64,000 bases of DNA from Arthrobacter zhaoxinii (lineage in GTDB: Bacteria > Actinomycetota > Actinomycetes > Actinomycetales > Micrococcaceae): contig NZ_JANFLT010000008.1 in assembly GCF_024385505.1 (NCBI RefSeq), forward strand, positions 1 through 64,000, read 5' to 3'. Numbering within the stretch: position 1 is the first letter of the stretch; every line of letters begins with the position of its first letter. Below, piece by piece: positions 23,250-36,926 of the stretch. The notes under the pieces are model-generated. The model did no database searches. It saw only the letters and a program-made list of their open reading frames with translations, and was not told the origin of the DNA. Both the position numbers and the translations under genes were made by a program.

Positions 23250-24479
23250 TTATATCTCCGCGGGCGAAAGCCATCGGCCCCGCCGCATGACGCGGCGGAG
23301 CTCCAGCTCCGGGCCGAGAACCAGCAGGTCCGCAGCAGCACCCTGTACCAGCTGGCCGACCTGCTGTTCGATCCCGAGAACCCGGGCCGGCACCAGCGCA
23401 GCCGCAGTCACTGCCTCTACCAGGCTGACACCGGCCCGGACACTGTTCCGCACCAGATCCAGCATGGATGCGGTGCCGCCCGCAATCGCACCAGTGGCAG
23501 TCACCCGTGCGGTGCCTTGCCGCACCGTGACGGCCGCAGGACCAAGCCGGTACTCCCCGTCCTGCAGCCCCGCAGCAGCCATGGAATCCGTCACCAGCGC
23601 TATGTTCTCCGCACCCAGGAGCTCGAACATGGTGGCCACCAGCACGGGGTCCAGATGGACGTTGTCGCCAATGAGCTCGACGACGGCGGCGCCCGCCTTC
23701 GCTGCCCGGAGGCAGGAGGCGAGCGCGCCCGGCGCCCGGTGATGCAGCGGGTCCATGGCGTTGAACATGTGGGTGACCGTCGGGCGGGCCGCAGACGCTG
23801 CAGCGCCTGCCAGCATCCGCCGGGAACGGGCGAGGGACTGTTCGGCCTGAATCGGCGAGCAGGCGGTGTGGCCCAGTGACGGAATCACGCCGTGGGCGAC
23901 CAGCAGGTCCACGAGCTGATCAGCGCCGGCCAGCTCGGGGGCATAAGTCATGGTGCGCAGGTGGCCGCGGGCGGCGGAGATAAACCTGCCCGCCAGCAAC
24001 ACGTCCGGATCCTGCAGCGACTGGGGGTCCTGTGCGCCGCAGCGGGCTGCGGCAAGGAAAGGCCCTTCCAGATGCAGTCCTGCCAGCAGTCCCTCCTCTG
24101 CCAGGCCCGCGAGTACTCCGAGCTGCCGGAGCAGCGCGTCCGGTGCGGCAGTGACAAGGCTGGCCAGCAGGGTGGTGGTGCCGCCGGCATAAAGCGCCGT
24201 GATTCCCGCGCGGACGTCCTCCGCCTCGGCGCTGGAGAAATCCACCCCGTGGGCTCCGTGGCAGTGCAGGTCGATCAGGCCCGGCACGAGCACCTCCCCC
24301 GCCGCGAGGTCAATAAAGCGGTCACCGGGACGGGGCTGGAATCCGGTGCCCGGCCTCGAATAGGCGAGTACCGTGCCCTCCACTGCAACCGTGGCATCCG
24401 CCAGGGTTTCCGTGCCGAGGACCGCCCGCCCGCGCAGGACGGTACGGGGAGTTCCGGGCGTCAGGGCGTATTTGGTCAT
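23250..24479 (-). CDS. nagA: N-acetylglucosamine-6-phosphate deacetylase
   Basis: A 409-aa amidohydrolase that removes acetate from GlcNAc-6-P to give glucosamine-6-P. Metal and catalytic residues are visible in order: D-L-H-C-H near residue 71, L-E-G-P-F (Glu ligand) near 137, L-G-H-T near 202, T-H-M-F-N-A-M near 235, and V-T-D-S-M (catalytic Asp) near 296. It is the last gene of the leftward nanR-nagB-nagA operon, starting 10 nt after nagB. Confidence 0.94.
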   Translation of the reverse strand: MTKYALTPGTPRTVLRGRAVLGTETLADATVAVEGTVLAYSRPGTGFQPRPGDRFIDLAAGEVLVPGLIDLHCHGAHGVDFSSAEAEDVRAGITALYAGGTTTLLASLVTAAPDALLRQLGVLAGLAEEGLLAGLHLEGPFLAAARCGAQDPQSLQDPDVLLAGRFISAARGHLRTMTYAPELAGADQLVDLLVAHGVIPSLGHTACSPIQAEQSLARSRRMLAGAAASAARPTVTHMFNAMDPLHHRAPGALASCLRAAKAGAAVVELIGDNVHLDPVLVATMFELLGAENIALVTDSMAAAGLQDGEYRLGPAAVTVRQGTARVTATGAIAGGTASMLDLVRNSVRAGVSLVEAVTAAALVPARVLGIEQQVGQLVQGAAADLLVLGPELELRRVMRRGRWLSPAEI

Positions 24480-24489
24480 TGGCTGTCCG

Positions 24490-25236
24490 TCAGGCCAGCA
24501 GGGAGGCCGCGGCGTCGTCCGCCAGGACGGTGACGTTGCCGTGCAGCTGCAGCACCGACGCCGGGCATTCCGGTGTCACCGGGCCGGTCAGGGCGCGTGC
24601 CAGGGCCTCGGCCTTTTCCCGTCCCCGGGCAATCAGGAGCAGCTGCCGGGCTTCCAGGATGGTGCCGAGCCCCTGGGTGAGGCAGTGCGTGGGTACGTCC
24701 TCGAGGGAATCGAAGAACCGCTGATTGGCCCGGCGGGTGTCCTCGGTGAGAGTCTCCAGTCGGGTGCGCGAGTCCAGCGCTGCACCCGGCTCGTTGAAGG
24801 CCAGATGGCCGTTGCGGCCGATGCCCAGGATCTGCAGGTCAATGCCGCCTGCTGCTGCGATGCGCTGCTCGTAGCGGGCGCCGGCCTCGTCCAGCTTCTC
24901 CGCATGCGGGTCGGGGACATGCATGGTCGCGGGGTCCAGCCCCAGCGGTTCAATGATTTCCCGGCGGAGCACTTCGACGTAGCTCTGCGCGTGGCCCGGA
25001 GCCAGTCCCACATATTCGTCCAGGGCAAACCAGGTAGCGCTGCTGAAATCGGTGCCCCCGGCGGCGAGCTCCCTGTAGAGGGGCGACGGCGACGAACCGG
25101 TGGCGACGCCGATCACCGGGGCCGGCCTCCCGGCGAGGGTTTCGAGCACAAGGTCAGCTCCGGCCTGTCCCAGGGTGGCCGCGTCGGCGCGGCGGATCAC
25201 CCGGATCGAAGAGTGCTGCAGGGACCCGGCCCTCAC
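24490..25236 (-). CDS. nagB: Glucosamine-6-phosphate deaminase
   Basis: A 248-aa isomerase/deaminase that converts glucosamine-6-P to fructose-6-P and ammonia, feeding glycolysis. The substrate site is G-V-A-T-G-S-S-P. The catalytic Asp is in F-A-L-D-E-Y, and the His in G-I-G-R-N-G-H-L-A-F-N-E-P is the ring-opening base. The GTG start overlaps the nanR stop in a GTGA junction, so the two are translationally coupled. Confidence 0.93.
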   Translation of the reverse strand: MRAGSLQHSSIRVIRRADAATLGQAGADLVLETLAGRPAPVIGVATGSSPSPLYRELAAGGTDFSSATWFALDEYVGLAPGHAQSYVEVLRREIIEPLGLDPATMHVPDPHAEKLDEAGARYEQRIAAAGGIDLQILGIGRNGHLAFNEPGAALDSRTRLETLTEDTRRANQRFFDSLEDVPTHCLTQGLGTILEARQLLLIARGREKAEALARALTGPVTPECPASVLQLHGNVTVLADDAAASLLA

Positions 25237-25970
25237 GAGGCGTCCTGCAGCTTGGCGAGTTCGCCTCGGATCCCGTCGAAATGCCTGCGCAGGCGTTCCG
25301 CGGCCAGCTCCTTGTCACCGTCTTTGACTGCTTCAAAAATCCCGCGGTGAACCGCCGCCGTTTCCGTCAGGTTGATCAGCGGGTCCCCGCCCAGCTCCGC
25401 ATGGATCTTGCGGTACACCTTCCAGAAAACGGACATCAGATTCGAGAGCAGCTCATTCCCCAGCGGTTCAAACAGCTGGTAGTGGAAAGCTTCGTCAACT
25501 TCGGTGAAGACTTCGCCTTCCGCGGCCAGGGTCTCCATCTGCTGGACAGTGGCCTCGATCTCAGCCAAGTGGTCCGGCGTCGAGAGGTCCATCGCCTCGC
25601 CGATCAGGCCGGATTCCAGCGCCTGCCGGACATCAACCAGCTGCAGCGCCTCCTTGCCTTCGTGGCGCAGGGAAAGCCTCCCGCGGAATGTCAGCCCGTC
25701 CGCCAGGGCATCGAAGTTGGCCGGAGCCACAAACATCCCAAACCCGTGCCGGATTTCAATCACCCCAAGGGCCTGGAGGACCTTCAGCGCCTCCCGCAGG
25801 GTGTTCCTGCCGATACCCAGCGCGAGGGTGAGTTCCCCCTCGGTGGGCAACGCATCGCCGGCCTTCAGGTCACGGTCGAGGATCAACTCCATGATGTCGG
25901 CCTGCAGAGCGCGGGAACGGTTCTGGGCACTGAACCGGGCCGGCGGCAGTGAGGCATCGGGCAGGCTCAT
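25233..25970 (-). CDS. nanR: FadR/FCD-type GntR regulator, probable NanR
   Basis: A 245-aa regulator. The winged HTH is at about 18-85 (A-L-Q-A-D-I-M-E-L-I-L, G-I-G-R-N-T-L-R-E-A-L-K-V-L, and the wing R-H-G-F-G-M-F-V). The FCD effector domain is at about 100-240, with conserved Asp/His metal-site residues. It is first in the nagBA operon and divergent from the sialic-acid uptake operon. By position and family it resembles NanR of Corynebacterium glutamicum, a repressor relieved by sialic-acid intermediates. AGGAGG precedes the ATG. Confidence 0.85.
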   Translation of the reverse strand: MSLPDASLPPARFSAQNRSRALQADIMELILDRDLKAGDALPTEGELTLALGIGRNTLREALKVLQALGVIEIRHGFGMFVAPANFDALADGLTFRGRLSLRHEGKEALQLVDVRQALESGLIGEAMDLSTPDHLAEIEATVQQMETLAAEGEVFTEVDEAFHYQLFEPLGNELLSNLMSVFWKVYRKIHAELGGDPLINLTETAAVHRGIFEAVKDGDKELAAERLRRHFDGIRGELAKLQDAS

Positions 25971-26117: not shown

Positions 26118-26136
26118 CGGACATCCTACGTCCGAT
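26118..26136. promoter_or_regulatory. Candidate NanR operator 2
   Basis: CGGAC (26118-26122) and GTCCG (26130-26134) form a dyad with a 7-nt centre. The half-site ACGTCCGAT matches operator 1 in 8 of 9 bases. It lies just downstream of the predicted start of the uptake operon, where a bound repressor would act as a roadblock. Confidence 0.5.
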
Positions 26137-26164: not shown

Positions 26165-27775
26165 ATGAGCAACACTTTTGAAAGCAGCGGGCTCCTGAAG
26201 GATTCAAGCCGGCGAAACTTCCTCAAGCTGGCCGGCGTGATGGGCGCCGCCGCAGCATTTGCAGGGTCCATCTCTGCATGCAGCCCGGGCGGAAGCCCGG
26301 CCACCGGAGGCGGCACGGCAGCCGCAGAAGGGACCGGCTCCATCGAAGCCGGAATTTCCTACCAGCTCTCCACCGGCTTCGACCCGATGCTTTCCACGGG
26401 TGCCACTCCGCAGGCCGCCAACCTGCACATCTTCGAAGGACTGACGGAACTCCATCCGGCCACCCGGGAGCGGTATCTCGCCCTGGCGGCCGCCGAACCG
26501 GTCATGGTGGATGACACCACGTACGAGGTGAAGCTGCGCAGCGGCGCGAAATTCCACAACGGGGAACCGGTGACCACGGCCGACGTCGCCTTCTCCTTCC
26601 AGCGCGTCCTCGATCCGGCCAACACGTCACTCTTCGCCGGGTTCATCCCCTTTATCGACACCGTGACCGCCAAGGACGATTCCACCGTCCAGTTCAAGCT
26701 GAAGTATCCGTTCCCCACCTTCAGCGACCGCATCTCGGTCATCAAGGTCGTCCCGGAAGCAGCAGTCAAGGCAGACCCGGCCGGTTTCGACCTCAAGCCG
26801 ATCGGCTCCGGCCCCTACAGCCTCGTCTCCGCCGTCAAGGAAGACCGCATCGTCTTCAAGAAGTTCGATGACTACAACGGCAAGTACCCGGCCCGGGTGG
26901 CGGACATGACCTGGCTGCTGCTGGCAGATCCGGCCGCCCGCGTCGCCGCAGTGCCCTCCCGCACCCAGGCCATCGAGGACGTCCCCTACCTGGACGTGGA
27001 CCAGCTCGCGAGCAAGGTCGACGTCGAGTCGGTGCAGTCCTTCGGCCTGCTGTTCCTGATGTTCAACTGCGCCAAGTTCCCGGACAAGCGCGTCCGCCAG
27101 GCACTGCACTACGCCATCGACACCGAGGCCGTCATCAGCAAGGCCCTGCTCGGCAACGCCTCTGCTGCCTCGTCCTACTTCCAGGAGGGGCACCCCTCCT
27201 ACAGCGAGGCATCCACTGTCTATGCGTACGACGCCGCCAAAGCCAAGTCCCTGTTGAAGGAGGCGGGGATGGAGAACATCACCATCACCCTCACCTCCAC
27301 GGACACCGGCTGGGTGACCCGTGTGGTGCCCCTGATCAAGGAGTACTGGGACGCCATCGGCGTTAGCACCACCCTGGAAATCCTCCAGTCCGCAGCGGTC
27401 TACGCTCCGGAAAAGGTGGGCGGAAAGAACTTCGATGTGCTTTGTGCGCCGGGTGATCCCTCGGTCTTCGGCAACGACGGCGACATCCTCCTCAGCTGGT
27501 TCTACCGCGGCGCCACCTGGATGGAGGCCCGCGCCGGCTGGAACACCACACCGGAATTCACCACCGTGCAGGACAAGCTGGACCAGGCCGTGAAGGTGGA
27601 TCCGGACAAGGCCAAGGGCATCCACGCCGAGGTCATCAACATCGTCTCCGAGGAAGCCCCGCTGTATCCGCTGTTCCACCGCAAGCTGCCCACCGCCTGG
27701 GACAGCAACGCACTGGACGGCTTCCAGCCGCTGCCCACCACCGGCGTCTCCTTCGTAGGCGTAGGACGCAAGTAG
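26165..27775 (+). CDS. Sialic-acid ABC transporter substrate-binding lipoprotein (SiaE-like)
   Basis: A 536-aa family-5 (peptide/nickel type) solute-binding protein. It has a twin-arginine signal S-R-R-N-F-L-K at residues 15-21 and a lipobox I-S-A-C with Cys39, so it is exported folded by Tat and lipid-anchored outside the membrane. The core carries the family region G-E-P-V-T-T-A-D-V-A-F-S. Its ligand is inferred from the operon: sialic acid, imported by genes in the order found in corynebacterial siaEFGI. A dipeptide ligand cannot be excluded by sequence alone. Confidence 0.82.
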   Translation: MSNTFESSGLLKDSSRRNFLKLAGVMGAAAAFAGSISACSPGGSPATGGGTAAAEGTGSIEAGISYQLSTGFDPMLSTGATPQAANLHIFEGLTELHPATRERYLALAAAEPVMVDDTTYEVKLRSGAKFHNGEPVTTADVAFSFQRVLDPANTSLFAGFIPFIDTVTAKDDSTVQFKLKYPFPTFSDRISVIKVVPEAAVKADPAGFDLKPIGSGPYSLVSAVKEDRIVFKKFDDYNGKYPARVADMTWLLLADPAARVAAVPSRTQAIEDVPYLDVDQLASKVDVESVQSFGLLFLMFNCAKFPDKRVRQALHYAIDTEAVISKALLGNASAASSYFQEGHPSYSEASTVYAYDAAKAKSLLKEAGMENITITLTSTDTGWVTRVVPLIKEYWDAIGVSTTLEILQSAAVYAPEKVGGKNFDVLCAPGDPSVFGNDGDILLSWFYRGATWMEARAGWNTTPEFTTVQDKLDQAVKVDPDKAKGIHAEVINIVSEEAPLYPLFHRKLPTAWDSNALDGFQPLPTTGVSFVGVGRK

Positions 27776-27839: not shown

Positions 27840-28799
27840 GTGACAATGTTTATCCGCCTGTTAGGGCGCCGGCTTGCTGTCCTGCCGATCATGCTGCTGG
27901 GCGTCACCGTGATGGTGTTCATCGTGCTGTCAGTTGTTCCGGCGGACCGCGCCACCGCCGTCCTCGGTGAAAACGCCAGCGAGGACGCCAAGGAAGCCTG
28001 GCGGGAGGAACGGGGCCTCAACGCTCCCCTGGTAGTCCAGTTCTTCCGGTATCTGGGCGGTGTGATCCGGCTCGATTTCGGCGTCACCAACCCGCCGGAA
28101 GAGTCCGTGGCCAGCAAAATCGCCACGGCCTTCCCGGTGACCCTGCAGTTGACCTTCCTCGGCATCCTGCTGGCCGTTGTCCTCGCCCTCACGCTCGGCA
28201 TCCTCGGCGCGCTCTACCGGGACCGCTGGCCGGACCAGGCCATCCGCATCTTCTCCATCGCGGCAATTGCCACCCCCTCCTTCTGGCTGGCGATCCTGCT
28301 GATCCAGTGGTTCGCCCTGCCCGAAGGATCCATCTTCCCCACGGGCGGCCTGGCCTGGGCGGACCAGTACGGGTTTGTCGGCTGGCTCTATTCCATGGCC
28401 CTGCCGGCCCTCGCCCTCGGCATCCCCGTCTCGGCGTCGCTCATCCGCGTGGTCCGGACCTCGATGGTGGAGGAACTCGACCGCGACTACGTCCGCACCG
28501 CCATCGGCAACGGCGTGCCCTACCGCACCGTCGTCGCCCGCAACGTCCTGCGCAACGCGCTGGTCACCCCCGTCACCGTCCTCGGACTGCGGGTGGGCTA
28601 CCTGCTCGGCGGCGCCGTCGTCATCGAAAAGATCTTCAGCCTCAACGGCATGGGCGACCTGATCGTCGTGGGGCTGACGACGTCGGACACCAACCTCGTG
28701 CAGGGCGCGGTGCTCACCATCGCGGTCGCCTTTGTCCTGGTCAACATCGTGGTTGACCTGCTGTACCTGCTCATCAACCCCCGAATCCGGACGGTGTAA
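27840..28799 (+). CDS. ABC permease, DppB type (SiaF-like)
   Basis: A 319-aa inner-membrane permease with six helices. The DppB-type EAA loop is visible near residues 210-235 (V-R-T-S-M-V-E-E-L-D-R-D-Y-V-R-T-A). GTG at 27840 has GGAG 9 nt upstream; an ATG two codons later is possible. It pairs with the permease half of the next protein. Confidence 0.88.
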   Translation: MTMFIRLLGRRLAVLPIMLLGVTVMVFIVLSVVPADRATAVLGENASEDAKEAWREERGLNAPLVVQFFRYLGGVIRLDFGVTNPPEESVASKIATAFPVTLQLTFLGILLAVVLALTLGILGALYRDRWPDQAIRIFSIAAIATPSFWLAILLIQWFALPEGSIFPTGGLAWADQYGFVGWLYSMALPALALGIPVSASLIRVVRTSMVEELDRDYVRTAIGNGVPYRTVVARNVLRNALVTPVTVLGLRVGYLLGGAVVIEKIFSLNGMGDLIVVGLTTSDTNLVQGAVLTIAVAFVLVNIVVDLLYLLINPRIRTV

Positions 28800-28803
28800 C
28801 CCC

Positions 28804-30930
28804 ATGCGCAATTCACTGGCCGAACGGCTCAGCAGCGGCGGCGCCCGCTTCACCGCCCTGAACCTCAGTTCAAAACTCGCACTGGGCTTCCTCGGATTCA
28901 TTGTCCTCGTGGCAGTCTTCGGACCGCTTCTGGCACCCTACGGGGAGAACGAATCCAGCGTCCCGGTCCTCGCCCCGAACGGCGAGCACCTCTTCGGCAC
29001 CGACGGTTCCAGCTATGACGTGTTCTCCCGGATGCTCTACGGGGCGCGGGTTTCCATCTCGATCGGCCTCGGTGCCGTTGCGCTGGCCCTGATCCTCGGC
29101 TCGGTCCTCGGCGCCGTTGCGGCCACCTCCGGCAAGGCCGTGAGCGAGACCGTGATGCGCATCCTCGACATCATGATGGCCTTCCCCGGCATCGCCCTGG
29201 CAGCAGCGCTGCTGTTTGCCCTGCGGGACCACTCACTGAACCTCTTCGGCTCGACCGTTCCGGTGATCATCCTTGCCATCGCCATTGTCTACACCCCGCA
29301 GCTCGCCCGGGTGGTCCGCGCCAATATCCTGGCCCAGTACGGCGAGGACTACGTCCGGGCCGAACGGGTCATCGGCGCCGGCCGCACCTACATCCTGCTG
29401 AAGCATATTGCCCGCAACTGCGCGGCCCCCATCCTGGTGTTCGCCACCGTGATGGTCGCCGACGCCATCATCCTGGAAGCCTCGCTGTCCTTCCTCGGCG
29501 CCGGCGTGCAGCAGCCCGCCGCCTCCTGGGGCAACGTCATGGCGGACGGCCGCAACGTGGTGTTCAGCGGAGCCTGGTGGCCGACGACGTTCGGCGGCAT
29601 CACCATTCTGCTCACCGTCCTGGCACTGAACATCCTGGCCGAAGGGCTGACCGACGCCATGGTCAACCCCGGCGTCCGAAAAGGCCGCAAGGGCGTGCCC
29701 CCGGCTCCCGCCGCCGTCGAGGCAGTGGCCACGGCCGCCCAGCCCTCCACCCTTGACGCCGCCGGCACCTCGCTGACCCAGGCCGACGGCGGCCGGCACC
29801 TCCCGGAGGAGGACGCCCTGCCCGCAACAGGCGCGGCCGTCAATGCACCCGGTTCCCTGGCAGCACTGGCCAAGGAACTGGAACTGCTGGCCGCCGTCGA
29901 GTCCCGGAGGACGGACCGCCTCCCGCAGGCGGACGAGGACGCCCCGGTGGTCCTGGAAGTGAAGGACCTTTCCATCCGCTTCCCCGGACGCTACGGCGAC
30001 ACCGCCATCGTGGACCGGGTGAGCTTTACGGTCCGCGAGGGCGAAACCATGGGACTCGTGGGCGAATCCGGCTGCGGGAAGTCCATTACCTCGCTGGCGG
30101 TCATGGGCCTGCTCCCGCCGACGGCACGGCTCTCCGGATCCATACGGTTTAACGGCAAGGAACTGCTGACCAATGACCCGAAGGAACGCAGCCAGCTGTA
30201 TCGGGGGCTGCGCGGCGAGCAGATCGCCATGGTGTACCAGGATGCGCTGAGCTCCCTGAACCCGTCCATGCTGATCAAGGACCAGCTCCGGCAGCTCACC
30301 TCCCGGGGCGGGCGCAGAAGTCCGCGGGAACTGCTCGAAATGGTGAAACTGGACCCGGACCGCACGCTGAAGAGCTACCCGCACGAACTGTCCGGCGGGC
30401 AGCGGCAGCGCGTGCTGATTGCCATGGCCCTGTCCCGTTCGCCGAAGATCGTGGTGGCGGACGAGCCGACCACCGCCCTGGATGTCACCGTCCAGAAGCA
30501 GGTGGTGGACCTGCTGAACGAACTGCGGGAACAGCTCGGGTTCGCCATGGTGTTTGTCAGCCACGACCTGGCCCTCGTTGCGTCCCTGGCCCACCGGGTC
30601 ACCGTGATGTACGCCGGGCAGGTAGTGGAATCCGGCGATGTTCCGGATCTGCTGCGGGACCCGCGCCACGAATACACCCGCGGACTGCTGGGAGCGGTGT
30701 TGTCCATCGAAGCCGGCGCCGAGCGTCTGCACCAGATCCAGGGCACCGTTCCCTCCCCCGGTGACTTCGCCGCCGGCGACCGTTTCGCGGAACGCTCGCT
30801 GCGGCCGGATGCGGATCCGGAGCAGGTCCTGGAGTTTGTCCGCATCGGCGGGACGAACCACTACTGGGCCAGCCATGAAACCCCTTCGGACCTGGTCGAA
30901 ACCGGCACAACAGCAAGGCAGCAGGCATGA
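28804..30930 (+). CDS. Fused ABC permease-ATPase (DppC-DppD; SiaG-like)
   Basis: A 708-aa fusion. Residues 1-290 are a DppC-type permease (T-D-G-S-S-Y-D-V-F-S-R start, EAA loop Y-V-R-A-E-R-V-I-G-A). Residues about 292-380 are an Ala/Pro-rich linker. From about 382 comes a complete nucleotide-binding domain: Walker A G-E-S-G-C-G-K-S at 420-427, signature L-S-G-G-Q, Walker B V-V-A-D-E-P, plus an OppD-type C-terminal extension. The fusion is seen in one uninterrupted frame. A similar fusion occurs in corynebacterial sialic-acid transporters. Start ATG 28804 is 4 nt after the permease stop. Confidence 0.9.
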   Translation: MRNSLAERLSSGGARFTALNLSSKLALGFLGFIVLVAVFGPLLAPYGENESSVPVLAPNGEHLFGTDGSSYDVFSRMLYGARVSISIGLGAVALALILGSVLGAVAATSGKAVSETVMRILDIMMAFPGIALAAALLFALRDHSLNLFGSTVPVIILAIAIVYTPQLARVVRANILAQYGEDYVRAERVIGAGRTYILLKHIARNCAAPILVFATVMVADAIILEASLSFLGAGVQQPAASWGNVMADGRNVVFSGAWWPTTFGGITILLTVLALNILAEGLTDAMVNPGVRKGRKGVPPAPAAVEAVATAAQPSTLDAAGTSLTQADGGRHLPEEDALPATGAAVNAPGSLAALAKELELLAAVESRRTDRLPQADEDAPVVLEVKDLSIRFPGRYGDTAIVDRVSFTVREGETMGLVGESGCGKSITSLAVMGLLPPTARLSGSIRFNGKELLTNDPKERSQLYRGLRGEQIAMVYQDALSSLNPSMLIKDQLRQLTSRGGRRSPRELLEMVKLDPDRTLKSYPHELSGGQRQRVLIAMALSRSPKIVVADEPTTALDVTVQKQVVDLLNELREQLGFAMVFVSHDLALVASLAHRVTVMYAGQVVESGDVPDLLRDPRHEYTRGLLGAVLSIEAGAERLHQIQGTVPSPGDFAAGDRFAERSLRPDADPEQVLEFVRIGGTNHYWASHETPSDLVETGTTARQQA

Positions 30931-31745
30931 ACGCGACAGCAACGCCGAACACCACCGGCCCCGTCCTCGAACTGAAGGACATCAAGGTCTACCACCGGGC
31001 ACGCTCGGGCTCCCTGTTCCGCCCGAACATCGTCAAGGCGGTCGACGGCGTGAACTTCACCGTCCGCCGCGGCGAGACCGTGGGGATTGTCGGAGAATCC
31101 GGCTGCGGAAAATCCACCCTGGCCTCCGTGCTGGTGGGACTGCAGGAGCCTACGGCCGGGGAAGTCCTCTTCCATGGAAAGCCGGTCAGCACCAAGGCCT
31201 CCTCCTCCAAGAAGACCTTCGGCCGCGACGTCGGCGTGGTGTTCCAGGATCCGGCCACCGCCCTGAATCCCCGGATGACCATCCATGACATCCTCACCGA
31301 CCCGCTTCAGGTCCACGGGATCGGCACCCAGCAAAGCCGGGACGCCAAGGTGAAGGACCTGCTCTCCCTCGTGGGCCTGCCGCAGTCCGCCGCCGACGTC
31401 ACCCCGCACCAGGTTTCCGGCGGCCAGCGCCAGCGCGTCGCCATTGCCCGGGCGCTGTGCCTGGATCCGTCGGTCATCGTGGCCGATGAGCCGACGTCGG
31501 CCCTGGACGTGTCAGTCCGCGCCCAGGTCCTGAATCTGCTCTCGGACCTGAAACGGGAACTGAACCTCGGCATGGTCTTCATTTCCCATGACATCCAGAC
31601 CGTCCGCTACGTTTCCGACCGCATCTGCGTGATGTATTTCGGCCGGATCGTCGAGGAAGGGCCCGCCCGCGATGTCTTTGACCGGCCCGCCAATGACTAC
31701 ACCAAGAGCCTGCTCGGAGCAGCGCCCAGCCTTTTGCACATCTAG
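30927..31745 (+). CDS. ABC transporter ATPase, DppF type (SiaI-like)
   Basis: A 272-aa nucleotide-binding subunit with Walker A G-E-S-G-C-G-K-S at about 56-63, Q-loop F-Q-D-P, signature V-S-G-G-Q-R-Q-R, Walker B V-I-V-A-D-E-P, and H-loop F-I-S-H-D. It should dimerise with the ATPase domain of the fused protein. ATGA overlap with the upstream gene indicates translational coupling. The OppF-type C-terminal extension is short. Confidence 0.9.
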
Positions 31746-31766: not shown

Positions 31767-32699
31767 TTGTCACACGCAACACAGTCCCGCTTCCACGGTG
31801 TCATCCCCCCGGTGGTTACGCCCCGCACCGCGGACGGCGCCGTCGACACGGCTTCGCTGGAAAAACTGACCAAATACCTGCTCGACGGCGGCGTTTCCGG
31901 ACTGTTCGTCCTGGGTTCCTCCGCCGAGGTGCCCTACCTGACCAATGACGAACGCGACCTGGTGGTACGGACCATTGCCGGCGTCAACGCCGGAGAGGTG
32001 CCTATCCTGGCCGGCGCAGCCGAGCAGACCACCCCCCGCGTGATCGAAGAGGGACGCCGGCTGATCGGCCTCGGCGCGGACGCCATTGTGGCCACCTCGC
32101 AGTTCTACGCCATTTCGGATGCCGCCGAGACGGAAATCCACTTCCGCGCCCTGCACGCCGCCTTCGATGTCCCCCTGTTCGCCTACGACGTTCCCGTCCG
32201 GACGCACTTCAAGCTCCCCCTGCATCTGCTGGTGCGGCTTGCGCAGGACGGCGTCCTCGCCGGCGTCAAGGATTCCTCCGGCGACGACGTCGGGTTCCGG
32301 CAGCTGCTGCTGGCCACCCGGAACGTGCCGGACTTCGCGGTCTTCACCGGACACGAGGTGGTGGTCGACGGCGCACTGCTGGGCGGCGCCCACGGCGTGG
32401 TTCCGGGACTCGGCAACGTGGATCCGGCCGGGTATGCGGCCCTGTACAACGCGGCCCAAAGCGGCGACTTTGCCGAAGCGGCCCGGATGCAGGACCGCCT
32501 GGCTTCCCTCTTCAATATTGTGTATGCCCCCACCCCCGGCCGTGTCTCGCCCGGAGCCGGAGGGCTCGGCGCCTTCAAGACGGCACTGATGCTGCTCGGC
32601 GTCATCGACACCAATGTGATGTCCGCGCCCATGGTGCAGCTGAACGAGGCCGAAACCTCCGCCATCCGGACCATCCTCGAGTCCAACGGGCTGCTCTGA
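31767..32699 (+). CDS. nanA: DHDPS-family aldolase, probable N-acetylneuraminate lyase
   Basis: A 310-aa TIM-barrel class I aldolase. The Schiff-base Lys168 is in G-V-K-D-S-S-G-D and the catalytic Tyr140 in F-A-Y-D-V-P. The neighbours (nanK, nanE, nagA, nagB) define the reaction as sialic acid to ManNAc plus pyruvate. By sequence alone the K-D-S-S-G-D motif is closer to dihydrodipicolinate synthase, so substrate assignment rests on context. TTG start with GGAG 7 nt upstream. Confidence 0.82.
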   Translation: MSHATQSRFHGVIPPVVTPRTADGAVDTASLEKLTKYLLDGGVSGLFVLGSSAEVPYLTNDERDLVVRTIAGVNAGEVPILAGAAEQTTPRVIEEGRRLIGLGADAIVATSQFYAISDAAETEIHFRALHAAFDVPLFAYDVPVRTHFKLPLHLLVRLAQDGVLAGVKDSSGDDVGFRQLLLATRNVPDFAVFTGHEVVVDGALLGGAHGVVPGLGNVDPAGYAALYNAAQSGDFAEAARMQDRLASLFNIVYAPTPGRVSPGAGGLGAFKTALMLLGVIDTNVMSAPMVQLNEAETSAIRTILESNGLL

Positions 32700-32704
32700 T
32701 TTCC

Positions 32705-33670
32705 ATGCGCCACGTGATTGGGCTCGATCTGGGCGGCACCAAGACTTCCGGCGGGGTGGTCGACGGCGAGGGACGGATCCTCTTCTCCTCCACCGTCGCG
32801 ACGCCGGCGCAGGCCGGGCCCGACGCCGTCCTGTCCGCCGCCGCGGACCTCACGGCTTCGCTCCGCGCGGATGCCCGGGACTCCGGTCTGGCCGTTGATG
32901 CGCTGGGCATTGGCGCCGCCGGCGTGATCGATTCCGGGCGCGGCGTCGTCGTCTCGGCGACGGACGCGATCCGCGGCTGGGGCGGAACCAGGCTGACCGC
33001 CGAGCTCACCCGGCGCACGGGGCTGCCCGCCACGGCCATCAATGACGTCCACGCGCATGCCCTCGGAGAAAGCTGGCTCGGCGCCGGTGCCGGGATGCCC
33101 AGCGTCCTGTTTATCGGCGTGGGCACCGGCGTGGGCGGCAGCTACGTCCTGGACGGCGAATGCCTGGAGGGGTCCAGCTTCACGGCCGGGCATGTGGGCC
33201 ACATCGCCTCACCCTTCGCGTATGAGACCGGCACATTTGGAAGCGGGCTGCCCTGCAGCTGCGGCGGCACCGGACATGTGGAAGCGGTGGCGTCCGGGCC
33301 GGGGATCTTCTCGCTCTTCACCCGGCTGGGCGGCGTGCAGGCGGAGGACACCCGCGGGGTGTACCGCCTCGCCGCAGAGGGCCATCCCGTTGCCGCCGAG
33401 GCTCTGCGCCGCGGGGCAGCAGCTGCAGGTTCCGCCGTCGGCGGCCTGGCGAACGTCCTGGACCCGCACGCCGTCATCGTCGGCGGCGGGCTGGCCTTCG
33501 CCGGACCGCTTTGGTGGAACACCATGGAGCAGGCGGCCCGGAACGAACTCCTGCGTCCGCTTGCCGGGCTGCCCATCGTCCCCGCACAGCTCGGGGAGAC
33601 TGCCGCCATCCGCGGTGCCGCCCGCCGCGCGCTGGCACTGAACCCCGTCTCCGAAGGGCAGCATGTTTAA
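32705..33670 (+). CDS. nanK: ROK-family N-acetylmannosamine kinase
   Basis: A 321-aa ROK sugar kinase. The ATP phosphate-binding motif D-L-G-G-T-K-T is at residues 8-14. The catalytic Asp is in A-I-N-D-V-H-A. A zinc site consists of the His of G-H-V-G-H and C-S-C-G-G-T-G-H-V-E near residues 180-192. Product ManNAc-6-P goes to NanE, whose gene overlaps by 8 nt. Glucokinase or allokinase activity is the alternative. Confidence 0.86.
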   Translation: MRHVIGLDLGGTKTSGGVVDGEGRILFSSTVATPAQAGPDAVLSAAADLTASLRADARDSGLAVDALGIGAAGVIDSGRGVVVSATDAIRGWGGTRLTAELTRRTGLPATAINDVHAHALGESWLGAGAGMPSVLFIGVGTGVGGSYVLDGECLEGSSFTAGHVGHIASPFAYETGTFGSGLPCSCGGTGHVEAVASGPGIFSLFTRLGGVQAEDTRGVYRLAAEGHPVAAEALRRGAAAAGSAVGGLANVLDPHAVIVGGGLAFAGPLWWNTMEQAARNELLRPLAGLPIVPAQLGETAAIRGAARRALALNPVSEGQHV

Positions 33671-34337
33671 TCTCGAGAGCCTCCGCTCCTCCCTCATAGT
33701 TTCCTGCCAGGCCTACCCCGGCGAACCAATGCGCGATCCCCGGACCACCGCGCAGGTGGCACAGTCCGCCGTCATTGGCGGGGCTGCCGGAGTACGCGTC
33801 CAGGGGATCAGTGACATCCGGGCCGTCCGTGCCGCCGTGGACGTTCCGGTGATCGGGCTGTGGAAGGACGGGCACGACGGCGTGTTCATTACGCCCACGC
33901 TGCGCCACGCCTTGGCCTGTACGGAAGCCGGTGCAGACATCGTGGCCCTGGACGGCACGCGCCGGGAACGGCCGGACGGACTGACACTGGCCGAGACCGT
34001 CGCTGCGCTGCACGACCAGACGCCGGCGCTGGTGATGGCCGACTGCGGGTCCGCTGCCGACGCCGAAGCTGCCGCGGCGGCAGGAGCGGACATCATCGGC
34101 ACCACGCTGGCCGGCTATACGGACGAGCGGCCGAAAACGACCGGGCCTGATCTGGAGCTTCTGCAGGAGCTGGCTGCACTGAGGCTGGGCGTTCCGGTGA
34201 TTGCCGAAGGCCGCATCCACACCCCGGCGCAGGGCCGTTCGGCGCTGGGCGCGGGGGCGTTCGCCGTCGTCGTCGGCACTGCCATCACCCATCCGGCCAC
34301 GATCACCAGCTGGTTCGCCGCTGCACTCGAGTCATGA
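33663..34337 (+). CDS. nanE: N-acylmannosamine-6-phosphate 2-epimerase
   Basis: A 224-aa TIM-barrel epimerase that turns ManNAc-6-P into GlcNAc-6-P, linking sialic acid to nagA. The N-terminal S-L-I-V-S-C-Q-A block is typical, the central I-G-L-W-K region carries the catalytic Lys, and I-A-E-G-R-I-H-T-P near residue 180 is the conserved end motif. The frame overlaps nanK at its start and the esterase at its end (ATGA). Confidence 0.92.
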   Translation: MFNLESLRSSLIVSCQAYPGEPMRDPRTTAQVAQSAVIGGAAGVRVQGISDIRAVRAAVDVPVIGLWKDGHDGVFITPTLRHALACTEAGADIVALDGTRRERPDGLTLAETVAALHDQTPALVMADCGSAADAEAAAAAGADIIGTTLAGYTDERPKTTGPDLELLQELAALRLGVPVIAEGRIHTPAQGRSALGAGAFAVVVGTAITHPATITSWFAAALES

Positions 34338-35311
34338 CCGGCTTCCTCGACCGGGTGGATCCGGAGCTCCTGCCGGGACTGGAGTATTCGCAGGCCCACC
34401 CGCCGCCCACTTCGGTGGCCGAGCTTTCGGATTTCCGGGCCCGGACTTCCCCGGCCGTCTCCGGCTTGGGCGACATGTCCTTCCGGGACTACCCGGCTGA
34501 CGGAGTTCTCCTGCGTGTTTTCACCCCCGCGGGAGCCGGCCCGCATCCGGCGATTTACTGGATCCACGGCGGCGGCATGATTGCCGGGAGCGTCGACGGC
34601 GATACCTCCTACTGCGCGGATCTGTGTGCCCGGACGGGGGCGGTGGTGGTTGCGGTGGACTACCGGCTCGCTCCGGAGCACCCCTTCCCGGCACCCCTGG
34701 ATGACGTGACCGCGGGACTGCGCTGGCTGTTTGCCTCAGCCGAAGCCCTGTCCGTGGATCCGCGCCGGGTGGCGGTGGCCGGTTCCAGTGCCGGCGGCGG
34801 CCTGGCTGCCGCGCTCACCCTGCGGAACCGGGACTCCGGCGGGCAGGCGGTTGCCTTCCAGTACCTGATGTATCCGATGCTGGATTCCTCGCACTCTTCC
34901 GGTTCTGCGGTCGAGTTCGCCGGCATTCCCACCTGGAACGCTGCGCACAGCCGGTTCGCGTGGGAGTGCTATCTGGGCGGTTTCCCTGCGAGCGCCTATG
35001 CGGTTCCGGCTCTCGCGGACGATCTCCGCGGGCTGCCCCCGACGCTGATCCAGGTAGGCGAGCTGGACCTGTTCCGGGACGAAGACATTTCCTTCGCCGC
35101 CCGCCTGCTGCAGGCCGGCGTACCCACCGAGCTGCACGTGTATCCCGGTGCCTATCACGGGTTCGAACTGACGGACTCACAGGTTGGCGCCCAAAGTCTG
35201 CGCGACCGGGACCGGGCGCTGGTCCGGGCCCTCCATGGTTCCGGCACAACCGCTTCCCATGAATACTGCTCCTCCCCCACGAATACCCCGATGAAAGGTT
35301 CCCCGTTATGA
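34334..35311 (+). CDS. HSL-type alpha/beta-hydrolase esterase in the sialic-acid operon
   Basis: A 325-aa hormone-sensitive-lipase-family carboxylesterase. The oxyanion motif is H-G-G-G near residue 76, the nucleophile is in G-S-S-A-G-G near residue 155, the acid in G-E-L-D, and His in Y-H-G-F-E. No signal peptide, so it acts in the cytoplasm. It is translationally coupled to nanE (ATGA) and to the following tatA (ATGA). Removal of O-acetyl groups from imported sialic acid would suit the context, but no experimental relative is known to me. Confidence 0.82.
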   Translation: MTGFLDRVDPELLPGLEYSQAHPPPTSVAELSDFRARTSPAVSGLGDMSFRDYPADGVLLRVFTPAGAGPHPAIYWIHGGGMIAGSVDGDTSYCADLCARTGAVVVAVDYRLAPEHPFPAPLDDVTAGLRWLFASAEALSVDPRRVAVAGSSAGGGLAAALTLRNRDSGGQAVAFQYLMYPMLDSSHSSGSAVEFAGIPTWNAAHSRFAWECYLGGFPASAYAVPALADDLRGLPPTLIQVGELDLFRDEDISFAARLLQAGVPTELHVYPGAYHGFELTDSQVGAQSLRDRDRALVRALHGSGTTASHEYCSSPTNTPMKGSPL

Positions 35312-35550
35312 GGCTTGAAGGCTGGCAAATCATCATCGTCGTCGTTCTGGCGATTGTCCTGTTCGGTGCTCCAAAACTGCCGGGAATGGCACGCAGCGTC
35401 GGCCAGTCCCTGCGGATCTTCAAATCGGAGGTGCGGCAGATGAAGGAAGAGGACGGCACTCCGGATACCACGCAGCCCGTGCCGGGAACCATACCCGTGC
35501 CGATGCCAGTGACAGTACCGAAGGACAGTTCCCCCTCCGCCCGCCAATAA
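35308..35550 (+). CDS. tatA: TatA-family Tat translocase subunit paralogue
   Basis: An 80-aa protein with the TatA layout: a short N-terminus, one membrane helix at about 7-22, the F-G-A-P-K-L-P hinge, a charged amphipathic helix to about 45, then a Pro-rich tail. TatA forms the protein-conducting assembly of twin-arginine export. No tatB or tatC is adjacent, so this is an orphan copy. Its ATG overlaps the esterase stop, placing it in the operon whose first gene encodes a Tat-exported binding protein. AAAGG lies upstream. Confidence 0.85.
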   Translation: MRLEGWQIIIVVVLAIVLFGAPKLPGMARSVGQSLRIFKSEVRQMKEEDGTPDTTQPVPGTIPVPMPVTVPKDSSPSARQ

Positions 35551-35653
35551 AAAACACCTGTACCCGGGTTCCAAACTGCCCTTGTGAGGCAGGATGGATG
35601 TACCCAGCCGGGACGCACGATCCCCGGACCGCACAGAGGAAAGGCATTATCCA

Positions 35654-35779
35654 ATGGCAGATCTAGGCGGCATGGCAGACAAGGCGAAGGACGCAGCCAA
35701 GGACAACCCGGAGAAGGTTGACCAGGCTAAAGACAAAGCGAAGGACGCCGTCGACGGAAACAAGGACGACAACAAGTAG
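35654..35779 (+). CDS. Small charged helical protein, possible Rv0909-type antitoxin family
   Basis: A 41-aa protein made of K-D/A-K repeats (A-D-K-A-K-D-A-A-K-D-N, D-Q-A-K-D-K-A-K-D-A). It resembles CsbD-like stress proteins and the short Rv0909/MT0933-type family annotated as antitoxins. No toxin gene is next to it, so a stress-protein role is as likely. GAGGAAAGG precedes the ATG. A stable hairpin follows. Confidence 0.6.
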   Translation: MADLGGMADKAKDAAKDNPEKVDQAKDKAKDAVDGNKDDNK

Positions 35780-35795
35780 TAACCGTCAGGCGCAG

Positions 35796-35831
35796 AGAGC
35801 CGGGCCGTCCCTGCGGGGGCGGCCCGGCTCT
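35796..35831 (+). terminator. Terminator after the 41-aa gene
   Basis: A 12-bp perfect GC stem (35796-35807 with 35820-35831) with a 12-nt loop, extendable past a 2-nt bulge. There is no T run. Confidence 0.65.
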
Positions 35832-35897
35832 GCCGGTTCCGGGCCCGTTTTGTCCGCACCGGGGAATAGAAGTCCGCCCGGGTTTCTTGTACCGCCC

Positions 35898-36926
35898 ATG
35901 AAAGCAATCGTGTACTCCGCCACAGGCCCCTCGTCCGTCCTCTCCCTCGTAGACCGCGACGCCCCCGCCCCCGGCCCCGGCGAAGTGCGGGTCCGGGTTA
36001 CCGTTTCGGGCGTGAACCCCACCGACTGGAAGGCCCGCGCCGGCAGCAGCCTCGCCTTCCCCGAAGTGGTGCCGAACCAGGACGGAGCCGGGGTGGTCGA
36101 CGCCGTAGGCGAGGGCGTAACCGATCTTCAGGTGGGCGACCGGGTATGGATCTACCTCGCCGCCCACGGCCGTCCGACCGGGACCGCCTCCGAATTCACC
36201 GTCCTCCCCGCCGACCGGGCCGTACGGCTTCCGGAAGACATTGGTTTTGACGTCGCCGCCAGCCTCGGCGTCCCTGCAATGACGGCGCACCGCGCCCTCA
36301 CCGTCCACGAGCACGGCCCGTCCCGGCTCGCCCCTGGAGCCCTGGCAGGACGCACCGTCCTGGTTCAGGGCGGCGCCGGAGCCGTAGGCCACGCGGCCAT
36401 CCAGTTCGCGGTCTGGGCCGGCGCCACCGTGATCGCCACGGTCAGCAGCGACGCGAAGGCCGAACTCGCCACCGCTGCCGGAGCGCACCACATCGTCCGT
36501 TACCCGGATGACGCCGAGGCCGAGCGCATCCGCGAGATCGCCCCGGACGGCGTCGACCACATTGTCGAGGTGTCCCCCGCCCAGAACGCCGCACTCGACG
36601 TCGACGTGATCGCCAACCACGGCAGCATCGCCTACTACGCCAATAACAACGGCGAGGAGTTCACCGCGCCGATCGTTGCCAGCTTCGCCAAGAACGTCCG
36701 CTGGCAGGGCGTGCTCATCTACACGGTGGGAACCGAGGCCCAACACGCCGCAGCAGAAGACATCACCGCCGCACTGCGGGACGGTGTCCTGCCCGTCGGC
36801 GAGTCCGCCGGACTTCCCCTCACCTGGTTCCCGCTCGAGGAAACCGCAGCCGCGCATGACGCCGTCGAAAGCGGCACCACCGGCAAGATCCTCATCCGCG
36901 TTGCCGGGGACAGCACCGACGCCTAG
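35898..36926 (+). CDS. NADPH:quinone reductase-type MDR oxidoreductase
   Basis: A 342-aa medium-chain dehydrogenase/reductase of the zinc-free quinone-oxidoreductase branch. The N-terminal catalytic domain has V-N-P-T-D-W-K, and the Rossmann domain starts at V-Q-G-G-A-G-A-V-G near residue 156. The cysteines and glutamate that bind structural zinc in alcohol dehydrogenases are absent. It probably reduces quinones or enals. The start at ATG 35898 begins at the family N-terminus; there is no clear ribosome site. Confidence 0.86.
   Translation: MKAIVYSATGPSSVLSLVDRDAPAPGPGEVRVRVTVSGVNPTDWKARAGSSLAFPEVVPNQDGAGVVDAVGEGVTDLQVGDRVWIYLAAHGRPTGTASEFTVLPADRAVRLPEDIGFDVAASLGVPAMTAHRALTVHEHGPSRLAPGALAGRTVLVQGGAGAVGHAAIQFAVWAGATVIATVSSDAKAELATAAGAHHIVRYPDDAEAERIREIAPDGVDHIVEVSPAQNAALDVDVIANHGSIAYYANNNGEEFTAPIVASFAKNVRWQGVLIYTVGTEAQHAAAEDITAALRDGVLPVGESAGLPLTWFPLEETAAAHDAVESGTTGKILIRVAGDSTDA

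Follow-up and report, generated by a model that had tools for sequence, protein, structure and literature searches.

An HSL-family esterase gene and a second tatA gene at the end of a sialic-acid operon in Arthrobacter zhaoxinii and its relatives

Gene organisation of the nan locus

The DNA analysed here, referred to as the window, comprises the 64,000 nucleotides at positions 1 to 64,000 of contig NZ_JANFLT010000008.1 of Arthrobacter zhaoxinii. Within it, nanE, the gene of an HSL-family esterase and a tatA gene, designated nan-tatA, form the 3' end of a nine-gene sialic-acid operon and are joined by two ATGA overlaps (Table 1), as a sequence-only reading of this DNA had claimed. The genes nanK and nanE overlap by 8 nt. 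A GAAAGG ribosome-binding site within the esterase gene lies nine bases 5' of the tatA start, and no ribosome site was evident at the esterase start when the sequence was read by eye. Scanning of positions 33500-36000 for terminators and sigma-70-type promoters revealed none.

Table 1. Features of the nan locus, with positions in the window
Feature	Position	Strand	Evidence
nagA-like gene, divergent arm	23250..24479	-	PF01979 Amidohydro_1 73.2 bits (cut-off 25)
nagB-like gene, divergent arm	24490..25236	-	PF01182 Glucosamine_iso 74.6 bits (cut-off 27)
GntR/FCD-family regulator (NanR-like), divergent	25233..25970	-	PF00392 and PF07729
Palindrome GGACATCCTACGTCC, candidate regulator site upstream of the operon	26119..26133	.	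Motif in relatives
SBP_bac_5 binding protein, Tat lipoprotein signal SSRRNFLKL...SAC	26165..27775	+	PF00496 E 6.9e-73; PF10518; TIGR01409
ABC permease 1	27840..28799	+	ORF; 68-97% identical matches in named nan loci having one
Fused ABC permease 2 and ATPase, 708 aa	28804..30930	+	PF00528 and PF00005 in a single protein
ABC ATPase 2	30927..31745	+	PF00005 127.9 bits
nanA, DHDPS-family lyase	31767..32699	+	PF00701 E 3.3e-44
nanK, ROK kinase	32705..33670	+	PF00480 E 3.2e-51
nanE, ManNAc-6-P epimerase	33663..34337	+	PF04131 E 4.6e-55; NF002231 above cut-off
ATGA overlap nanE/esterase	34334..34337	+	Sequence
HSL-family (Abhydrolase_3) esterase	34334..35311	+	PF07859 E 7.7e-64
GAAAGG ribosome-binding site of tatA, within esterase gene	35293..35298	+	Sequence
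ATGA overlap esterase/tatA	35308..35311	+	-4 nt in 12/12 est-tatA operons of the genus
nan-tatA, second TatA, 80 aa	35308..35550	+	PF02416 E 4.7e-15; NF001854 above cut-off

The names nanA and nanK were taken from the operon context, because the NCBIfam models for both stayed under their cut-offs. Permease 1 was named from its open reading frame and its matches in the nan loci of relatives instead of a family model. The fusion of permease 2 with the first ATPase was also present in the relatives measured. For the divergent regulator, the closest NCBIfam match was NanR, with a score under the cut-off of that model. The order of the nagB-like and nagA-like genes is retained in the nan loci of relatives, where nagA adjoins nagB. 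A small open reading frame and an alcohol dehydrogenase gene were considered as further operon members and rejected, since of the tatA loci scanned only the window, L168 and L169 have them behind tatA, the others lacking them or carrying them kilobases away or on the opposite strand. This open reading frame (35654-35779) encodes 41 lysine-rich amino acids resembling an MT0933-like antitoxin (24.8 bits, Pfam cut-off 27).

The palindrome GGACATCCTACGTCC is located 31 bases 5' of the binding-protein gene and represents a candidate operator. The motif was found in 17 of 18 sources with tatA and in 10 of 76 without, figures uncorrected for the close kinship of the tatA operons. It is missing in L172, and in G351 it precedes the sialidase gene instead. 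With one mismatch allowed, a match also occurred in 53 of 100 shuffled versions of the window.

Occurrence in related bacteria

The order nanE-est-tatA, which the sequence-only reading had proposed to look for in other actinobacteria, recurs in 12 of the 29 genomes of the genus; A. citreus DSM 20133 and A. koreensis are soil strains with this order. Full-length NanE was detected in 19 of these 29 (two weak matches with E values of 1e-4 and 9e-4 were left out), comprising the 12 with nanE-est-tatA, one (G004) with nanE-tatA and six in which neither gene adjoins nanE. Chance adjacency of the three genes was ruled out by this recurrence together with the identical overlap in all 12 operons. Of 38 genomes from the sister genus to which A. 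bussei belongs, 8 contain NanE. Among these eight, A. bussei (L035) and G361 (L212) show the order nanE-est-tatB-like-tatA-tatC, and G351 shows nanE-est-sialidase-tatA; A. echini and one metagenome-assembled genome (MAG) have nanE-tatA and lack the esterase, the order in A. echini being nanE-tatA-sialidase. G258 carries the esterase and a sialidase gene and lacks a second TatA, and the remaining two, with a 59% identical NanE, have neither esterase nor tatA. Both genes are thus separable, as tatA occurs without the esterase in three operons and the esterase without tatA in three. Five genomes of the genus (L034, L036, L039, L040 and L171) have a BNR-type sialidase-like gene in convergent orientation behind tatA, starting some 0.1-0.2 kb from it.

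In the GTDB collection, tatA was present in 10 of 80 named loci, which were the best 80 of 383 relatives; in L045 and L088 there is a distant esterase gene and no tatA. Of the 130 loci scanned, some of which come from genomes fetched twice, 17 had a TatA match at any position of the retrieved DNA, or 18 with the window included. The esterase is linked to nanE in 18 operons; matches of less than 38% identity were excluded, for example one in L111 (33%, about 0.8 kb past nanE). The nan-linked tatA was absent from the loci sampled in other Micrococcaceae genera. Across the family, nanE was present in 150 of 395 genomes, of which a chosen part was examined. A class-wide draw contained nanE in 38 of 394 genomes, and none of its 29 inspected neighbourhoods (1.5 kb on each side, one from the same family) held a TatA near nanE. 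Two records assigned to Sporosarcina (L078) and to an Acidobacteria MAG (L059) contain Arthrobacter-type nan operons and probably reflect contamination or misnaming.

An operon tree was calculated from permease 1, ATPase 2, NanA and NanE of 91 operons (8 of 99 were incomplete and dropped) in a quick search with SH-aLRT as its sole support measure. All 18 tatA operons, originating from two genera, fall within a single clade of 24 rows (SH-aLRT 100), and the minimum number of changes on this tree is three for tatA and five for the esterase. The simplest story, in a direction that we infer, is that tatA and the esterase were gained once at the base of this clade and later lost in some lines, with the esterases of L045 and L088 being separate.

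Esterase, binding protein and second TatA

The esterase contains an Abhydrolase_3 domain and the motifs HGGG (78), GSSAG (150-154), DLFRDED (245) and YHGFE (274), and it shows the marks of the HSL family (family IV), namely Abhydrolase_3, HGGG, G-x-S-x-G, Asp and His. The presumptive catalytic triad was assigned by the rules of this family. The best match among solved structures was 7wol (E 1.8e-69). No NCBIfam model scored above its cut-off, the best being LipP1 with 231.5 bits against 350, and an SGNH/SASA domain was not among the Pfam matches at E 0.001. As no signal peptide was evident by eye, the protein is probably cytoplasmic. The motifs are complete in all 16 esterase genes of the clade; the esterases of L045 and L088 differ by having GASAG, and the YHG motif was not found in their matched part. 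In the esterase tree, the 16 operon esterases cluster together (SH-aLRT 87), and 15 further HSL esterases of the genus (18 fetched, three dropped because of stops in the match) lie outside this cluster; the esterases of L045 and L088 have no supported place.

The sequence-only reading had also named the binding protein as a Tat substrate. Its signal agrees with this prediction, scoring 23.3 bits with Pfam TAT_signal (cut-off 22.7) and above the cut-off of NCBIfam TIGR01409, and it is combined with a lipobox. A tat gene and a likely Tat substrate lie in a single gene run headed by the binding protein. The same kind of Tat lipoprotein signal occurs in all 18 operons with tatA, each with RR-x-F-L, and in 69 of 70 without tatA; the lone miss (L100) is broken by frame changes, and six further loci without tatA had no binding-protein match and stand outside the 70. 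The role of nan-TatA is consequently limited to that of a helper at most, not a requirement, and the distribution of this signal indicates that the housekeeping Tat system is evidently able to handle the binding protein. The assumption that the tat genes serve their own binding protein gained strength from the presence of tatB-like, tatA and tatC genes at the nan operon of two relatives, whereas the 69 operons, and the six genomes of the genus that keep the nan genes with no tatA next to them, speak against a strict need.

The nan-TatA protein scored 55 bits with PF02416 TatA_B_E (cut-off 21) and 76.9 bits with the TatA-specific model NF001854 (cut-off 72); with TIGR01411 tatAE it reached 53.3, slightly under the cut-off of 53.9. 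PF02416 has three matches in the genome, namely the housekeeping TatA adjoining the sole TatC, one TatB and nan-TatA. No tatC lies beside the nan operon in A. zhaoxinii; at the sensitivity of the search used, the genome has one tatC, on another contig and adjoining the other tatA, so that the description of nan-tatA as an orphan proved correct. The FG hinge is an essential element of TatA. The nan-TatA of the window contains WQ at positions 6-7, LFGAPKLP, and IF at positions 37-38, and WQ and IF may correspond to Gln8, a position calling for a polar residue, and to Phe39 of E. coli TatA. Both Gln8 and Phe39 are named as essential residues of TatA (PMC4148689). The core (GW-Q/H, LFGAPKLP, S-L/M-RIF) is undamaged in all 18 nan TatAs. 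Over 50 core residues, nan-TatA is 84% identical to the housekeeping TatA of the same genome (8 of 50 differ), and the sequence thus gives no sign of a special role. The core site that differs most between the lineages reads QLK in the nan TatAs of 10 of 11 genomes and QMK in the housekeeping TatAs (QLK in 0 of 11); the exception is the nan-TatA of the window, which is housekeeping-like at this site. The tail motif VEGRVV of housekeeping TatAs is missing from many nan TatAs and kept in A. bussei and G361.

A TatA tree (IQ-TREE, 53 sequences, 192 columns) split 14 nan TatAs, comprising those of the 12 est-tatA operons of the genus, G004 and G351, from all 35 sampled housekeeping TatAs by a branch supported with 98/94. 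According to this tree, the nan TatAs of this genus are a lineage separate from housekeeping TatA. The nan TatAs of A. echini, the MAG and A. bussei were placed beside the housekeeping TatA of A. bussei, and the core of the G361 nan TatA is identical to the housekeeping copy of G058. Individual placements are unsure because of long branches in G351, G004 and G002. A single clade of all 18 nan TatAs was not recovered by IQ-TREE, which needs three changes, and it was not rejected either (AU p 0.38); FastTree gave a nan TatA clade of 16 rows at 0.91, without A. bussei and G361. The median dN/dS of nan-tatA was 0.115 (55 pairs from 11 genomes, 49 codons) compared to 0.049 for housekeeping tatA, which indicates purifying selection looser than that on housekeeping TatA. 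A recent duplication of the resident tatA was ruled out, as the core DNA of both genes is 70.3% identical and 23 other rows are nearer. Isolated second tatA genes were also observed away from nan in G007 (L180) and NtRootA1 (L197), where the stretches of 16 kb and 3.1 kb, respectively, had no matches to nanE, the esterase or tatC.

In A. bussei, the tat cluster is located behind the esterase gene (L035:11703-13294): the stop codon of the esterase overlaps the start of the tatB-like gene, which in turn overlaps tatA, and tatC follows 15 bases further. G361 has the same order, with about 25-73 bases between the esterase and the tatB-like gene, and both genomes possess housekeeping tat copies elsewhere. 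The nan TatC proteins scored above the Pfam and NCBIfam cut-offs (TIGR00945, 169.1 in A. bussei and 175.6 in G361; cut-off 132.7). TatB models matched the remaining protein best, yet none reached its cut-off: NF002377 gave 59.2 and 78.1 bits (cut-off 96), TIGR01410 tatB 29.9 and 36.2 (cut-off 56.5) and PF02416 15.9 and 17.5 (cut-off 21, unmatched at E 0.001). Owing to these scores and an identity of 45-60% to housekeeping TatBs, the gene was termed tatB-like; the two proteins share 49% identity. The nan TatC of A. bussei is 97.3% identical to its own housekeeping TatC, and that of G361 is, as a protein, 100% identical to the housekeeping TatC of G058. At the DNA level, the G361 nan tatC shows 98.2% identity with the housekeeping tatC of G058 (L259) and 89.9% with that of G361 itself, which suggests a recent exchange between genomes. 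Near-housekeeping tatA and tatC next to a diverged tatB-like gene indicate mixed ages within the module and point to recombination. By sequence comparison, the nan TatA and TatC of A. bussei and G361 thus appear to be recent copies or to have been refreshed by recombination, and the TatB-like protein appears to be old or fast-evolving. Either the full tatB-like/tatA/tatC set was ancestral and most lines retained nothing of it but tatA, or two lines acquired the other genes later.

A putative Tat unit, its alternatives and known systems

With somewhat more confidence than doubt, we regard the locus as a regulated sialic-acid unit with an accessory esterase and a second TatA, the latter of which would work with the resident TatC for the benefit of the operon's own binding lipoprotein. 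The operon would provide regulated uptake and breakdown of sialic acid, with its last two genes being accessory. Sialic acid would co-induce nan-TatA along with the transporter, presumably by co-transcription, and nan-TatA would be a working second TatA that joins the single TatC receptor of the cell and its separate TatB. Tat capacity would rise when the binding lipoprotein is made in bulk, matching TatA supply to demand. More tentatively, the nan operons of the clade may hold a sialic-acid-induced Tat unit (tatB-like, tatA and tatC in A. bussei and G361, tatA in the others) tuned to their own binding lipoprotein, meaning that the nutrient would switch on the transporter plus the translocase exporting the transporter's receptor; we consider this one claim as possible rather than probable.

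Other roles of the tat genes have to be weighed against this reading. As a general, TatE-like spare, nan-TatA would aid any Tat substrate, and its location in the operon would be incidental to the binding protein. The nearly unchanged TatA core, the Tat-type binding proteins of operons lacking tatA and the isolated second TatAs of G007 and NtRootA1 would fit such a spare; we judge it rather unlikely, because linkage to nan is kept across four arrangements in two genera (est-tatA, est-tatBAC, est-sialidase-tatA and tatA alone) and because two relatives also hold tatB-like and tatC genes at the nan operon. That the Tat genes serve a secreted sialidase instead of the binding protein appears improbable. 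This sialidase-like protein (BNR_2, PF13088) is encoded between esterase and tatA in G351, after tatA in A. echini and convergently past tatA in the five further genomes, and most of the 12 signals read contain an RR pair, which in L036, L039 and L171 is part of RRPFK. On the other hand, RR-x-F-L-K occurs in none of the 12 signals compared to RR-x-F-L in every binding protein of the tatA operons. Moreover, one query detected the sialidase in 7 of 18 tatA genomes, and in G258 without a nan-tatA, and did not find it in the A. zhaoxinii genome, for which reason a sialidase was set aside as the constant Tat substrate.

It is equally hard to believe that tatA merely hitchhikes as a duplicate which recombination has exchanged time and again and which plays no part in sialic-acid use. 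The near identity of the G361 genes to those of G058, the 92.5% identity between the nan and housekeeping tatC genes of A. bussei, and the loss or absence of tatA in several operons speak for such a duplicate; the low dN/dS, the exact overlap in 12 of 12 operons and the retention of a diverged tatB-like gene beside fresh tatA and tatC in A. bussei and G361 speak against it. Should the reading of a Tat unit for the binding lipoprotein be true, nature would here provide a catabolic operon that contributes some or all of the apparatus exporting its own surface receptor. Two questions of Tat biology could then be addressed genetically: whether the supply of TatA is limiting when an abundant substrate is exported, and whether paralogues of TatA or TatB are adapted to certain substrates. 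The clusters of A. bussei and G361, in which a diverged TatB-like protein is combined with TatA and TatC close to the housekeeping forms, lend themselves directly to such tests.

The putative role of the esterase is probably the removal of ester groups from imported sialic acids. It would act most likely in the cytoplasm on ester-modified, e.g. O-acetylated, sialic acid before NanA. That its gene is linked to nanE in 18 operons, and in some also to sialidase-like genes, speaks for the substrate being a sialic-acid ester. There is a lesser but appreciable chance that the operon carries a general acyl-ester or lactone hydrolase instead of a sialate esterase. The HSL family has broad substrates and no NCBIfam model fits the protein above cut-off, both in line with a general hydrolase, which is opposed by the grouping of the 16 operon esterases apart from the other HSL esterases of the genus. 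An esterase linked to sialic-acid use resembles NanS, EstA and PvSAE with regard to this proposed role (PMC10017367). In E. coli, NanS is required since the transporter apparently does not accept acetylated sialic acid (PMC10017367), and in Streptomyces, nan clusters include nanS as an accessory gene (PMC8754123). NanS and the P. vulgatus enzyme are described as SGNH proteins (PMC10017367), in contrast to the HSL-type Abhydrolase_3 protein with GSSAG and HGGG described here. As the described sialate O-acetylesterases are SGNH where the consulted portion of PMC10017367 names a fold, an HSL enzyme would, if shown, be a different family for this job.

The transporter type, the consecutive nanA, nanK and nanE genes and a FadR-type regulator are shared with actinobacterial nan clusters containing SBP_bac_5 (ST3; PMC8754123). 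A term search of the main text of this 2022 survey gave no hit for 'tat', 'twin-arginine' or 'esterase', and no open-access report of tat genes in sialic-acid operons was found among the matches listed. The suggestion of a wholly new type of operon design is nevertheless not supported, since linkage of Tat genes to substrate genes and TatA-type paralogues with different roles are already known. Additional TatA-type proteins besides the main TatA are represented by E. coli TatE (PMC5777986) and Campylobacter TatA2 (PMC4148689), which the portions of these papers used here do not describe as part of a catabolic operon with its own substrate. The two Campylobacter TatA paralogues differ in substrate need (PMC4148689), and for E. 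coli TatA substrate binding was reported to enhance transport (PMC4361764). In Listeria, tatAC lies near fepCAB and both are under Fur (PMC4481299), which likewise joins nutrient uptake genes including a Tat substrate with co-regulated tat genes nearby. There, tatAC forms a separate operon, the substrate FepB belongs to the peroxidase family, and Tat consists of TatA and TatC, so that tatAC is not an extra copy. A further likeness is phoD-tatAdCd of Bacillus subtilis, in which Tat translocase genes are joined to the gene of their own Tat substrate (PMC3827258). That system comprises a two-part TatA and TatC serving a phosphodiesterase. In the nan operon, by contrast, an ABC binding lipoprotein is the probable substrate, and a sugar-uptake operon ends in tatA alone, without its own TatC in the A. 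zhaoxinii cluster, or in tatB-like, tatA and tatC in A. bussei and G361.
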